This document shows, piece by piece, positions 801 to 4,911 of a stretch of DNA of 22,684 nt. Position 1 is the stretch's first letter. Every line of letters begins with the position of its first letter. The translations under genes and the position numbers were made by a program. Source of the DNA: a virus. Below the pieces are notes generated by a model. It had not been told where the DNA came from, did no database searches, and was given only the letters and a program-made list of their open reading frames with translations. The DNA lies in the IMG/VR virus record IMGVR_UViG_3300046655_000285, positions 1 through 22,684 of that record. One strand, given 5' to 3'.

Positions 801-1844
801 TTATGAAATTAAGTGAGGTTTGGCTTCAGCTAGTCCTGCATTTGTAACTACATTATATTCTGCTTGATTAAAATATTCAAGTAGATCATTAGCTCCAGCG
901 TATGAGAATGCTGATTTGATTCCATCGGTTAGTCCATTGATAATAAACCTAGCGCCACCTTTAAATGGAATTGTAGTAGACTCGCCTTCAACATTACGTT
1001 GCTTTTGAGCGTGTGTAATTTTAGTCTCTAAAGATGCAGAACCGCGGTAGCGTTTGAAAAGACCTGCTGGAGTTTCTAGGATTGCACCTGGAGATTCTTT
1101 TGTACCTGCTAGTAGAGAACCGACCATAACACAGTCGGCTCCTACTGCAAGTGCTTTTGCAATATCACCTGAGGACTTAATTCCCCCATCAGCCATGATG
1201 GGAACTCCGGCTCCGTCAGCTACTTTAAATACATCCTCGATTGAAGTAACGTTTGGTACACCAAAGCCTGTTTTTACTCTTGTGGTACATAGCGATCCTC
1301 CGCCAATACCAACTCTAAGTCCGTCTGCACCCCACGTGATAAGATCTTCGGCTGCATCGGCTGTTGCGATGTTTCCTGCAATTACGTCAGTAACATCTTC
1401 TTGCAAATTTTCTTTTAGCATGCTAATAGCAATTTCCATATTCTCGTGATGACCATGTGCAACATCAATCAAAATAATGTTACATCCTGCTTCTTCAAGT
1501 TCAATTGCTCTTTCAAGATAGTCTCCTACCACACCAACGGCTGCCATAACAGGCAAGTGTGCCATTGACACATCAGTTTCTCTAAATGCAACTAGTTTTT
1601 TAACTTGAGCCACCTGTTCTTCAATAGACATAAAGCGGTGAATGCAACCAACTCCACCCATTTCCATTAGTGTTGCTGCCATTTCATATTCCGTCACAGT
1701 GTCCATACATGAACCTACAAGTGGAATATTGATTGACCAGTTTCTACTAACATTAACTGCCAATGAAATATTCTGGCGTGTTGGAATGTCAGAAAAATTA
1801 GGGATGAGCTGAATGTCATCGTACGTTAGTGCTTGCTTTCGCAT
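801..1844 (-). CDS. IMP dehydrogenase/GMP reductase family enzyme without CBS domains
   Basis: A TIM-barrel purine nucleotide oxidoreductase, 347 aa, the same length as E. coli GMP reductase. Visible motifs: the substrate region around CMDTVTE (46-52); IDVAHGH (126-132); GNIAT (157-161); the catalytic loop GGSLCTTRVKTGFG with nucleophile Cys186; MADGGI (217-222); and YRGSAS followed by a VEGEST..PFKG flap region (266-296). The tandem CBS domains of most IMP dehydrogenases are absent. VKTGFG resembles GMP reductase, while IHRFMSIEEQV (68-78) resembles IMP dehydrogenase, so the direction of the reaction (IMP to XMP, or GMP to IMP) cannot be settled by eye. With the guanylate-kinase-like gene at 4438 it suggests the phage adjusts the host guanine nucleotide pool. 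It lies downstream of the sigma gene after a 62-nt gap with an A/T-rich leader. Confidence 0.93.
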   Translation of the reverse strand: MRKQALTYDDIQLIPNFSDIPTRQNISLAVNVSRNWSINIPLVGSCMDTVTEYEMAATLMEMGGVGCIHRFMSIEEQVAQVKKLVAFRETDVSMAHLPVMAAVGVVGDYLERAIELEEAGCNIILIDVAHGHHENMEIAISMLKENLQEDVTDVIAGNIATADAAEDLITWGADGLRVGIGGGSLCTTRVKTGFGVPNVTSIEDVFKVADGAGVPIMADGGIKSSGDIAKALAVGADCVMVGSLLAGTKESPGAILETPAGLFKRYRGSASLETKITHAQKQRNVEGESTTIPFKGGARFIINGLTDGIKSAFSYAGANDLLEYFNQAEYNVVTNAGLAEAKPHLIS

Positions 1845-1906: not shown

Positions 1907-2503
1907 TTAAACTTTGCCAGCAATTATAGCTTTTCCTCTACGAATTCTATTTTTGATGGTCTGAAGAGGTAGGTCATACTTCTTAGCAATGTCTTCATAT
2001 TTCATATTGTTAAGTAGTCTATCTTCTAGAATACCTTTGTACATTGGCTTAAGAGTTTCGATACCTTTTAGAGCAGCTTCATATCTATTCATTAGGTCAT
2101 CATCTTCATCGATCCAATCTTGTTCAGATTTGTATTCCATTTCAACAAGTAAATCTTTTGCAGAAGTTCTAGCATAATACCTAGATACTTCTATTCCACT
2201 ATCTTGAAGTGCATCGATAGATCTCTTTCTATTTCTTTGACGTATCCATCCAAGACATTCATTGAATGCAATTCTATAAAGCCATGTTGTAATTTGATAT
2301 TGTGGATCGTATTGATCTGCTTTAGTCCACAATTTAGTAAGTGTATTAGTGACAATATCATCTTTAGCCTCATTGTCTTTAACTACGTTAAATACGTAAT
2401 TTTCTAGGCCTGGTTTAATTTTTTCATAAAGGACTTTGTAGTCTTTTTCTGATCTGGTTGTAATAAAATTTTCTGCTAGTTCTCTGTAGGATATTTTTGA
2501 CAT
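1907..2503 (-). CDS. ECF-type RNA polymerase sigma factor
   Basis: 198 aa with the two-domain layout of ECF (group 4) sigma factors. Region 2 spans about residues 20-93 and includes DDIVTNTLTKLWT and TTWLYRIAFNECLGWIRQRNRKRS, which binds the -10 element and core polymerase. Region 4 spans about 145-193 and ends in a helix-turn-helix (YEDIAKKYDLPLQTIKNRIRRGK) for -35 recognition. An acidic linker (SEQDWIDEDDDL) separates them. Region 1 and most of region 3 are absent, as usual for ECF factors. The gene sits directly downstream of promoter-like copy 2. It may redirect host polymerase to phage promoters, either the three-box class or the late GATATATAA class. It holds the role gp55 has in T4, but descent from gp55 cannot be shown here. 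Confidence 0.92.
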   Translation of the reverse strand: MSKISYRELAENFITTRSEKDYKVLYEKIKPGLENYVFNVVKDNEAKDDIVTNTLTKLWTKADQYDPQYQITTWLYRIAFNECLGWIRQRNRKRSIDALQDSGIEVSRYYARTSAKDLLVEMEYKSEQDWIDEDDDLMNRYEAALKGIETLKPMYKGILEDRLLNNMKYEDIAKKYDLPLQTIKNRIRRGKAIIAGKV

Positions 2504-2848: not shown

Positions 2849-3367
2849 TTAGAAATCTTTGAAAATATCTACAACTTTGTGTAGTTCTTGAGGTTTATGA
2901 CTCCACAAATCAGTAGATGCATTAATAATTCTTTTCTTAGGATCTGATTTGAATTGCTTAGCTGGATAACCAATAATAGAAAACCATTTCTTAGTTTTAC
3001 CTGGCCAAGCTCCTAGTGGATAATAAGAAAGTGAAACTTGATTTTTTGTATCTGTTTCAATACATTTAATAATCTCACATCCAGGTCTAAACATTTTCTT
3101 TGAATCTAAATGTTCTATCGCCTGGTCATGTTCACCTAAACAGAATTTAATATTACCGTTTAATCGAAGCATCGCATCTTGTGCAGTTTTAGGGTCCCAT
3201 GCAAAATTACCTAAATAATAGACAGTATCTTCTCTTGTTACGACTTCATTCCAGTTTGCAATTAGCTTATCTGTCATTTCATCAACATTAGCAAAGTCTC
3301 TTTTATACTTCTTAATTGCACCGGGTCTACCTAATTGTAGATTTGATGTTACGAATATTTTACCCAT
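2849..3367 (-). CDS. Degenerate calcineurin-like phosphoesterase, probably catalytically dead
   Basis: 172 aa. The backbone pattern is that of phage and bacterial calcineurin-like phosphoesterases: a first strand and loop, then MTDKLIANWNEVV..EDTVYYLGNFA (31-56), RLNGNIK, a GxHD motif and LSYYPL (113-118). The metal-binding residues are nearly all replaced. The expected SD.HFGH reads SNLQLGR (8-14), GDFA reads GNFA (53-56), GNHD reads GEHD (78-81), LSHYP reads LSYYP, and the final GH.H reads GYPA (133-136). Only H80 and D81 remain. The frame is otherwise intact and of normal length, so this looks like a maintained pseudoenzyme. It starts on the stop of the nuclease gene (TAATG), so the two are translationally coupled and may work together, for example in binding nucleic acid or a partner. 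Confidence 0.8.
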   Translation of the reverse strand: MGKIFVTSNLQLGRPGAIKKYKRDFANVDEMTDKLIANWNEVVTREDTVYYLGNFAWDPKTAQDAMLRLNGNIKFCLGEHDQAIEHLDSKKMFRPGCEIIKCIETDTKNQVSLSYYPLGAWPGKTKKWFSIIGYPAKQFKSDPKKRIINASTDLWSHKPQELHKVVDIFKDF

Positions 3368-3903
3368 TAGGCTACTATAAATTTTATATTGTAATTATCC
3401 CAAAGCTCGTTACAAACTGCCTGTTCGTTTACACCACCCTGTGCATTTTGAATTCTCTTATCGTCTGATATATCTACAAAAAGATAGAGTACAAAATCAT
3501 AATGAGTTGCATAAATTAAAGACTGTCCAATACCAGCTCTAAGGTCTGAACCTCTTTTTCCTTTCTTGAATTCAATAGCAATTTTAATACCATTCATTTC
3601 AACTACCATGTCGGGTCTATTTCTAGTTCCCATAAAAAGGATATGATTAACAGTAGTGTTAACATCACCTTCCCATTTAACAGAAGACTTTACTATTTCT
3701 TTTGCCTTCTCTTTATCATCCTCACCTTCAGAGACTAAATAATTTGTTAAGTCTCTGACAAGGTGTGGGTAAATAAATTGTTTGATCTGATCTTCTGACT
3801 TTTTCTTATAGTTCAGGGTTCCGAATATATCTTCATGTGTGATAGACTCAGAAATAAGATCTAAAAATTCTACTCTCTTCGAGGATTTACTTGCTTGTTT
3901 CAT
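3367..3903 (-). CDS. PD-(D/E)XK nuclease-like protein
   Basis: About 178 aa from the ATG at 3903; a TTG two codons earlier is less likely. The core motif is NRPDMVVEMNGIKIAIEFKKG (about 98-117 counted from the TTG): Pro-Asp followed after one strand by Glu-Phe-Lys, the PD-(D/E)XK signature in which Asp, Glu and Lys coordinate metal and cleave DNA. A GIGQSLIYATHYDFVLYLFVD segment follows, resembling the conserved Gln helix and strand of RecB- or Cas4-like nucleases. The N-terminal third is charged and helical. The gene overlaps the upstream coiled-coil gene by 17 nt and the downstream phosphoesterase by 1 nt, so the three form one coupled cassette. The substrate is unknown; DNA processing, host DNA degradation or anti-defence are all possible. 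Confidence 0.72.
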   Translation of the reverse strand: MKQASKSSKRVEFLDLISESITHEDIFGTLNYKKKSEDQIKQFIYPHLVRDLTNYLVSEGEDDKEKAKEIVKSSVKWEGDVNTTVNHILFMGTRNRPDMVVEMNGIKIAIEFKKGKRGSDLRAGIGQSLIYATHYDFVLYLFVDISDDKRIQNAQGGVNEQAVCNELWDNYNIKFIVA

Positions 3904-4396
3904 GTGCAACTGGTTCTACTTCAGCTTCAACATCTTCAGCACCTTGAATCTGAGCTTCTACTTCTGCAATTTCTTTATGAAGATCTGCAATTTCTTGATT
4001 CAATGCTGCTAGTTGTTGCATAGCATTAGATACAGTTTCACCAACATGAGTTAACATGGTAATAAACTTTCTTGCGCTTTCAATACCAGTGCCTTCTACA
4101 TTTAGTAGTGCTTGATAAAGAGCGTTTAGTTCATGTCCTCTTAGACTGATGATAGTATCTTCGCTATCTGAATTTAATAATGCTTTATTTTGCGATTTAA
4201 GTTGATCGTAAAGAGTAACTACCACAGCGGCATTATTAGTTTTCCACGTATATCCCTTGTTTAAGTGGTCCATTAATACTTTAACCATCTTTCTATCATC
4301 AAATACAATGTCGAAAGTTTTTTCAGCAGCATCAATTTGTGCTTGGTCTACCTTTTTGGTAAGTTCTTCTTTTTGTTTTGTAAGAGTCTTGCTCAT
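3887..4396 (-). CDS. Coiled-coil protein, unknown function
   Basis: 169 aa, not recognised. The N terminus (1-25) is Lys-rich. The middle contains a WKTNNAAVVVTLYDQLK segment. Residues about 115-155 form a heptad-like coiled coil (NAMQQLAALNQEIADLHKEIAEVEAQI), followed by an acidic tail. This suggests an oligomeric, cytoplasmic protein. It is first in a coupled three-gene cassette with the nuclease and the degenerate phosphoesterase, and a TATATAAATT box lies 24 nt upstream of the ATG. It could be a scaffold or structural component; nothing in the sequence decides. Confidence 0.75.
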   Translation of the reverse strand: MSKTLTKQKEELTKKVDQAQIDAAEKTFDIVFDDRKMVKVLMDHLNKGYTWKTNNAAVVVTLYDQLKSQNKALLNSDSEDTIISLRGHELNALYQALLNVEGTGIESARKFITMLTHVGETVSNAMQQLAALNQEIADLHKEIAEVEAQIQGAEDVEAEVEPVAHETSK

Positions 4397-4437: not shown

Positions 4438-4911
4438 TTAAAAGTCTTCATTTTTGACTCTTAAGTCAAAATCCCTGAAGTTTTTAAACTGGTCATCATC
4501 AGTATTCATCCTTCTAACGATAGAGTCATTTAGATCGTTTCTATATTCTAACCTTTCAACTCTAGAGATTCTAGGTGGATCTAAATATATTACCATACAT
4601 TGGTCTCTATACTCTTTTGGTAAAACATCTAAGCCGTCTTTTGACATTATCATTACATCGGCAAGATCGAAATCTTTCTTTGTTTGACCATAATACCAAC
4701 CATTGAATTCCATATACTCTACGAAGTCTCCACAAGAAATCATATCTTCAAATTCTTGTTTATCAACAAAGTGATAGTCTTTATGATTCACTTCATTCTC
4801 TCTAGGAGGTCTAGTAGTGTGGCTAACACCGCTTACAAATCCTTTCTTAGCTAGTCTATTCTTTAAAAAATCTTTGCCTGCGGCTGCTTTACCTACTAGT
4901 ATTAACTTCAT
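4438..4911 (-). CDS. Guanylate kinase-like (deoxy)nucleoside monophosphate kinase
   Basis: 157 aa, somewhat shorter than cellular guanylate kinase (about 200). It has an N-terminal P-loop GKAAAGKD (7-14), then the GMP-binding region SHTTRPPRENEVNHKDYHFV (about 30-49) and FVEYMEFNGWYYGQTK (63-78), both close to the canonical STRPPR.GE..G.DYHFV and E....G..YGT. The P-loop ends in Asp where Ser or Thr is usual. The GKD form is known in some phage-type dNMP kinases, so it need not mean inactivity. The expected reaction is phosphorylation of (d)GMP to (d)GDP with ATP, which complements the IMPDH/GMP reductase at 801. It sits 5 nt after the stop of a small membrane protein gene. Confidence 0.88.
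   Translation of the reverse strand: MKLILVGKAAAGKDFLKNRLAKKGFVSGVSHTTRPPRENEVNHKDYHFVDKQEFEDMISCGDFVEYMEFNGWYYGQTKKDFDLADVMIMSKDGLDVLPKEYRDQCMVIYLDPPRISRVERLEYRNDLNDSIVRRMNTDDDQFKNFRDFDLRVKNEDF

Follow-up and report, generated by a model that had tools for sequence, protein, structure and literature searches.

Genes at the locus

The window, by which we mean the whole 22,684-nt stretch of IMG/VR virus record IMGVR_UViG_3300046655_000285 that was analyzed, encodes the following proteins around the gene of interest, listed from upstream to downstream:

4438 to 4911, minus strand: guanylate kinase-like protein, 157 aa (phrog_1815, 5.6e-39), found in 72 of 84 loci
3887 to 4396, minus strand: coiled-coil protein of unassigned function, 169 aa, found in 77 of 84 loci
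3367 to 3903, minus strand: PD-(D/E)XK nuclease-like protein with an ATG at 3903 (the listed ORF extends to a TTG at 3909), TAATG-coupled to the next gene
2849 to 3367, minus strand: pseudo-metallophosphoesterase, 172 aa, so called from its ORF, its phrog_547 match, its predicted fold and its uniformly eroded relatives
1907 to 2503, minus strand: ECF-like phage sigma factor, 198 aa (Sigma70_r2, Sigma70_r4_2, phrog_1740), the constant downstream neighbor
801 to 1844, minus strand: protein that reads as IMP dehydrogenase-like (phrog_9582 "dehydrogenase", 7e-94), downstream of the sigma factor

The one-strand order from guanylate kinase to sigma factor recurs across the first 84 loci that we collected, with the nuclease gene in 60 of them and the sigma gene in 80. 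With the guanylate kinase gene on one side and the IMP dehydrogenase-like gene on the other, the module is flanked by genes for guanine nucleotides. A defense-system reading of the cassette was dropped, as PADLOC gave no meaningful match.

Fold and descent of the 172-residue protein

The ORF runs on the minus strand from an ATG at 3367 to a stop codon ending at 2849, and the phrog_547 "phosphoesterase" profile matches its product over residues 1–170, that is, over its full length (E 3.1e-22). PF00149 gave no match in a Pfam search, as expected given that the motifs are lost, and neither did any other Pfam or NCBIfam model, those for known anti-sigma domains included. AlphaFold2, run with a 17-row alignment, nevertheless produced a model with a mean pLDDT of 90.0 and a pTM of 0.86. 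Foldseek aligned this model with phage metallophosphatases over 176 columns (E 1e-11, TM 0.83) and found Aquifex aq_1665 (1xm7) as the best PDB match (E 5e-8, TM 0.73), and profile–profile comparison with intact phage homologues by hhalign gave 99.7% (E 4e-26). The protein is a calcineurin-like metallophosphoesterase by descent: the original prediction of this fold, for which structure prediction had been proposed as the check, is borne out by both the family profile and the model.

The protein has its fold, its length and its non-catalytic conserved stretches in common with aq_1665 and with the phrog_547 / COG4186 phage phosphoesterases, examples of which are BBA65441 of Xanthomonas phage XacN1 and XAI97355 of Leptolyngbya phage Lbo-JY46. 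Its close relatives all lie on uncultured contigs, and the nearest records in phage collections are about 34–38% identical. Bacterial genomes yielded a single relative, on a MAG contig; single-sequence scans with two family members added one (L022 protein) and none (L104 protein).

The erased metal site

In this fold, metal site 1 draws on an Asp and a His in motif I, on the bridging Asp and on the final His. The bridging Asp also serves metal site 2, together with the Asn of motif III, the His of motif IV and the His that comes first in motif V. In the window protein, the corresponding segments read as follows:

3326 to 3346, minus strand: former motif I, SNLQLGR (residues 8–14), with Asn9, Gln11 and Arg14 in place of Asp, His and His
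3200 to 3211, minus strand: former motif II, GNFA (residues 53–56), with Asn54 in place of the bridging Asp
3125 to 3136, minus strand: former motif III, GEHD (residues 78–81), with Glu79 in place of Asn; the His80 position drifts in relatives
3017 to 3031, minus strand: former motif IV, LSYYP (residues 113–117), with Tyr115 in place of His
2960 to 2971, minus strand: former motif V, GYPA (residues 133–136), with both His of GHxH lost

All five readings had been made from the DNA beforehand and hold in the ORF translation. Of the seven residues that should bind metal (D, H, D, N, H, H, H), not one remains, compared with seven of seven in the canonical set. Judged by these residues, the protein lacks a canonical metal site and has presumably lost phosphoesterase activity, and the label "phosphoesterase" that annotation pipelines would give to proteins of this kind is probably wrong.

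Fixed replacements rather than decay

We scanned IMG/VR with two profiles, which returned 165 and 185 relatives, and analyzed the best 80 of each; both profiles used peptide patterns of the eroded family, and the outcome was re-checked on copies retrieved by way of the neighboring sigma gene. All or most ligands are lost in 52 of 52 non-redundant relatives, while all seven are kept in 23 of 23 canonical phrog_547 / COG4186 homologues, arguing that the loss in the window protein is not a chance event. The sigma-fetched set gives the same picture. It comprises 62 distinct full-length copies, not one of which has the His of motif I, the Asp that bridges the metals or the second GHxH His; 42 of them retain no ligand at all, and the best copy keeps four. 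The bridging-Asp position is Asn or Gly in all 62.

Within the window's own group (group A, 37 non-redundant rows), Asn9, Gln11, Arg14, Asn54 and Tyr115 are each invariant (37/37), and position 79 is Glu or Asp in 36/37; the catalytic His position (80) and GHxH positions 134 and 136 vary. Because half of the site columns are fixed and half drift, the conservation of all eight pooled is unexceptional, with random column sets as low in 8% of draws. Close homologues are under purifying selection (median pairwise dN/dS 0.14 over 70 pairs). These patterns indicate that the old pocket has been partly rebuilt and fixed rather than abandoned. Alignment of phage homologues had been proposed as a check on the idea of repurposing, and that idea is well supported by the fixed substitutions, by the low dN/dS and by the half-eroded series described below. 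Random decay to a pseudogene is rejected in view of the fixed replacements, the dN/dS of about 0.14 and the intact frames in nearly all relatives. In one locus (L087, 6001–6509) the frame is broken after about 41 aa, through either an assembly error or a true frameshift.

A stepwise series of metal-site loss

A sister group (group B) carries the motifs SDTWFGR / LGNFAWDP / GN(T,S,A)D / (C,S)HYP / HGHTVF, which preserve the Asp of motif I, the His of motif IV, the His that comes first in motif V and, for the most part, the Asn of motif III. Read in terms of the two metal sites, group B no longer has the bridge, the catalytic His or the greater part of site 1 but keeps most of site 2, and group A has lost both sites. 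Other half-eroded types (L201, L313, L318, L322 and L333) sit at the same sigma locus, and the half-eroded relatives taken together form a stepwise series. A tree built without any motif columns separates canonical from eroded proteins (UFBoot/SH-aLRT 100/99) and recovers group B as a clade (99/94); group A comes out as one side of a split in roughly half the bootstrap trees, and its placement relative to B is tentative. The AlphaFold2 model of a group B protein was weak (pLDDT 60.9) and was left out of the fold search, so the fold prediction refers to group A.

Could these proteins still be enzymes, working with a single metal or with none? Group B, with most of its site 2 ligands, is where this is most plausible. 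We consider it very improbable overall, given that the bridging Asp is gone from every sigma-linked copy, that the catalytic His position drifts, and that 42 of the 62, in group A, have no ligand left.

Canonical and eroded copies coexist in some of these phages; several encode an intact phrog_547 paralogue and a larger gp47/SbcD-like phosphoesterase as well. Contigs G011, G012, G015, G019, G021, G025, G028, G031, G032 and G036 (records L017, L019, L315, L319, L079, L093, L090, L195, L197 and L336) each combine the eroded copy with a strong phrog_547 match (about 206–233 aa), often accompanied by a gp47/SbcD-like protein some 370 aa long. With canonical, half-eroded and fully eroded copies all present in related phages, each step on the way from enzyme to scaffold is open to testing.

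The sigma factor gene is the constant neighbor

The sigma gene, which the original prediction did not mention, lies 345 nt downstream of the pseudo-phosphoesterase gene in the window. Its product has sigma regions 2 and 4, both above cut-off (PF04542, Sigma70_r2, 5.7e-11; PF08281, Sigma70_r4_2, 3.1e-6), and matches phrog_1740 (6.8e-19). Taking as testable every distinct locus whose sequence continues for 900 nt or more downstream, we found a co-directional downstream sigma gene in 113 of 113. Around 80 canonical phosphoesterase loci, no co-directional sigma gene was found within 3 kb (0/80), with a weak opposite-strand match in four; canonical family members, which keep all seven ligands, do not lie beside this sigma gene. 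In the reverse scan, starting from sigma, 72 of 79 loci had an eroded copy no more than 3 kb upstream, and no locus had a canonical copy there. Four of the seven misses have an eroded copy about 3 kb away, just past the fetched flank, and the other three are contigs with the pseudo-phosphoesterase about 5.5 kb upstream, so that overall an eroded copy lies upstream of sigma in 79 of 79 contigs and a canonical one never does. Adjacency this constant (113/113 and 79/79, against 0/80 controls) is what bacterial-type sigma / anti-sigma pairs display.

The spacing differs between groups: the pseudo-phosphoesterase and sigma frames overlap by 8–14 nt in 28 of 34 group B loci, and in group A the gap is 73–750 nt, with one of 5.5 kb. 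The other cassette genes are less constant. Linkage to sigma persists in loci L058, L060, L061, L062 and L070, which have no guanylate kinase, coiled-coil or nuclease gene; in these five, the genes upstream of the pair encode large proteins instead, of median length 688 aa and with a start that resembles a signal peptide. Group B has no detectable coiled-coil gene, and in most of its loci the guanylate kinase gene is about 2.7 kb upstream. As direct neighbors, only the pseudo-phosphoesterase and sigma genes are common to group B, the 462-kb phage LR756500 and the MAG contig.

The partner named originally was the nuclease gene, and the coupling itself is real: the nuclease stop and the pseudo-phosphoesterase start overlap in a TAATG at 3369–3365. 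The nuclease family shows the D...ExK pattern (D98 in 57/60, E111 in 60/60, K113 in 52/60, Q127 in 60/60), and the PD-(D/E)XK call is motif-based, the window's protein having no significant Pfam match. As main partner, however, the nuclease is demoted, because its gene is missing from roughly one in four of the loci collected first and none was detected near group B copies, in LR756500 or on the MAG contig. The constant partner is the downstream sigma factor, and the nuclease coupling is secondary. That the pseudo-phosphoesterase is an accessory subunit of the nuclease, as the coupling and the nuclease's presence in 60 of 84 loci might suggest, is the least probable of the readings considered here: besides these absences, the partial distance correlation with the nuclease is about zero, and in three nuclease homologues the nuclease motif itself is lost with the pseudo-phosphoesterase still present. 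In these three (L095, L097 and L098), Lys replaces the motif Asp and Ile the Lys, L098 reading IES for EFK, and this type of nuclease is possibly inactive.

The pseudo-phosphoesterase might have a separate function with no tie to sigma, the two staying together only as members of a genome block that is passed on and controlled as a whole. Several genes do stay together in group A, and all cassette genes co-vary in mirror-tree comparisons, a signal that does not single out sigma. In most group A loci the pseudo-phosphoesterase–sigma gap contains a promoter-like TATATTTG/TATATTAG element, so the sigma gene there appears to have its own promoter-like element and co-transcription with the pseudo-phosphoesterase would not be required. 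Against this, the linkage outlives the block in group B, in LR756500 and on the MAG contig, and the frames of the two genes overlap in group B. We regard a separate function as unlikely, but as the alternative to be taken most seriously.

A proposed non-catalytic role in phage transcription

We favor, at roughly even chances, the reading that a dead phosphoesterase now serves the phage sigma/RNA polymerase system as a repurposed, non-catalytic partner. An ancestral phage phosphoesterase gave up its catalytic His and bridging Asp along with the greater part of metal site 1, and in the window's lineage metal site 2 is gone as well. The fold was retained, with a new polar cluster (Asn9, Gln11, Arg14, Asn54, Glu79 and Tyr115) fixed in the old pocket. 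We infer that the protein binds sigma, or the sigma–RNA polymerase complex, through this re-fixed face and that it acts without catalysis on the sigma factor encoded downstream, either as an anti-sigma or as a co-activator or assembly factor. Counting against this are the other causes for which adjacency can persist, the sigma gene's own promoter-like element in group A, the unspecific mirror-tree signal, and a search for pseudo-phosphoesterase/sigma gene fusions that found none.

The rebuilt pocket might instead serve as a ligand sensor, binding some nucleotide, such as a guanine nucleotide or an alarmone, uncut and signaling to the surrounding transcription and nucleotide-metabolism genes. 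That the pocket is polar and fixed would fit, as would the guanylate kinase gene near most copies and the IMP dehydrogenase-like gene after sigma in the window and in some relatives. Guanylate kinase is absent, however, from some loci that keep the sigma linkage, and both the openness of the pocket and the ligand are putative; we think this explanation improbable.

The role as a sigma partner has precedents in part. Eukaryotic retromer uses the phosphoesterase fold of VPS29 as a protein-interaction scaffold (by the title of reference 27 in PMC7539009); VPS29 has other partners, and the parallel of binding proteins through the former active-site face is one of analogy. The B subunits of eukaryotic DNA polymerases keep an inactive calcineurin-like phosphoesterase fold as a regulatory subunit (PMC4996933), in replication rather than transcription and with a different domain set. 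Dead phosphoesterases are therefore already known in eukaryotes, and the present case is phage-borne; the literature that we searched described no phage pseudo-phosphoesterase. In T4, the late-transcription co-activator gp33, which binds RNA polymerase, works with the phage sigma gp55 (PMC7892883). Like the window pair, this is a phage sigma with a separate phage protein, but gp33 is small and helical (five helices; PMC7892883), an unrelated fold. Bacterial ECF sigma / anti-sigma pairs likewise consist of an ECF-like sigma and a constant adjacent gene, overlapping in the case of group B, and differ in that the window partner has a phosphoesterase fold, lacks a known anti-sigma domain and occurs in a phage.

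More tentatively, these proteins may form a widespread new class of phage transcription regulator, in which a phosphoesterase was turned stepwise into a dedicated non-catalytic sigma partner with intermediates surviving. If so, the intermediates would record the order of metal-site loss. The constant sigma linkage points to an unstudied layer of control in large phages, probably of Bacteroidota.

Virus type, host and promoter-like elements

Terminase, tail sheath and tail tube genes in the window identify a contractile-tailed phage. The best NCBIfam match of the sigma factor is a Bacteroidota subfamily, at a score below that model's cut-off, and the host is probably a member of the Bacteroidota, an assignment resting on the sigma subfamily and the promoter-like elements only. 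Allowing up to three mismatches, the element TTTTCGTATATT(A/T)GTAC has 4 matches where 0.5 are expected. Three near-identical copies lie on the minus strand at 161–177, 2539–2555 and 2777–2793, and are candidate promoters of the Bacteroidota type; two of the three sit between the pseudo-phosphoesterase and sigma genes.
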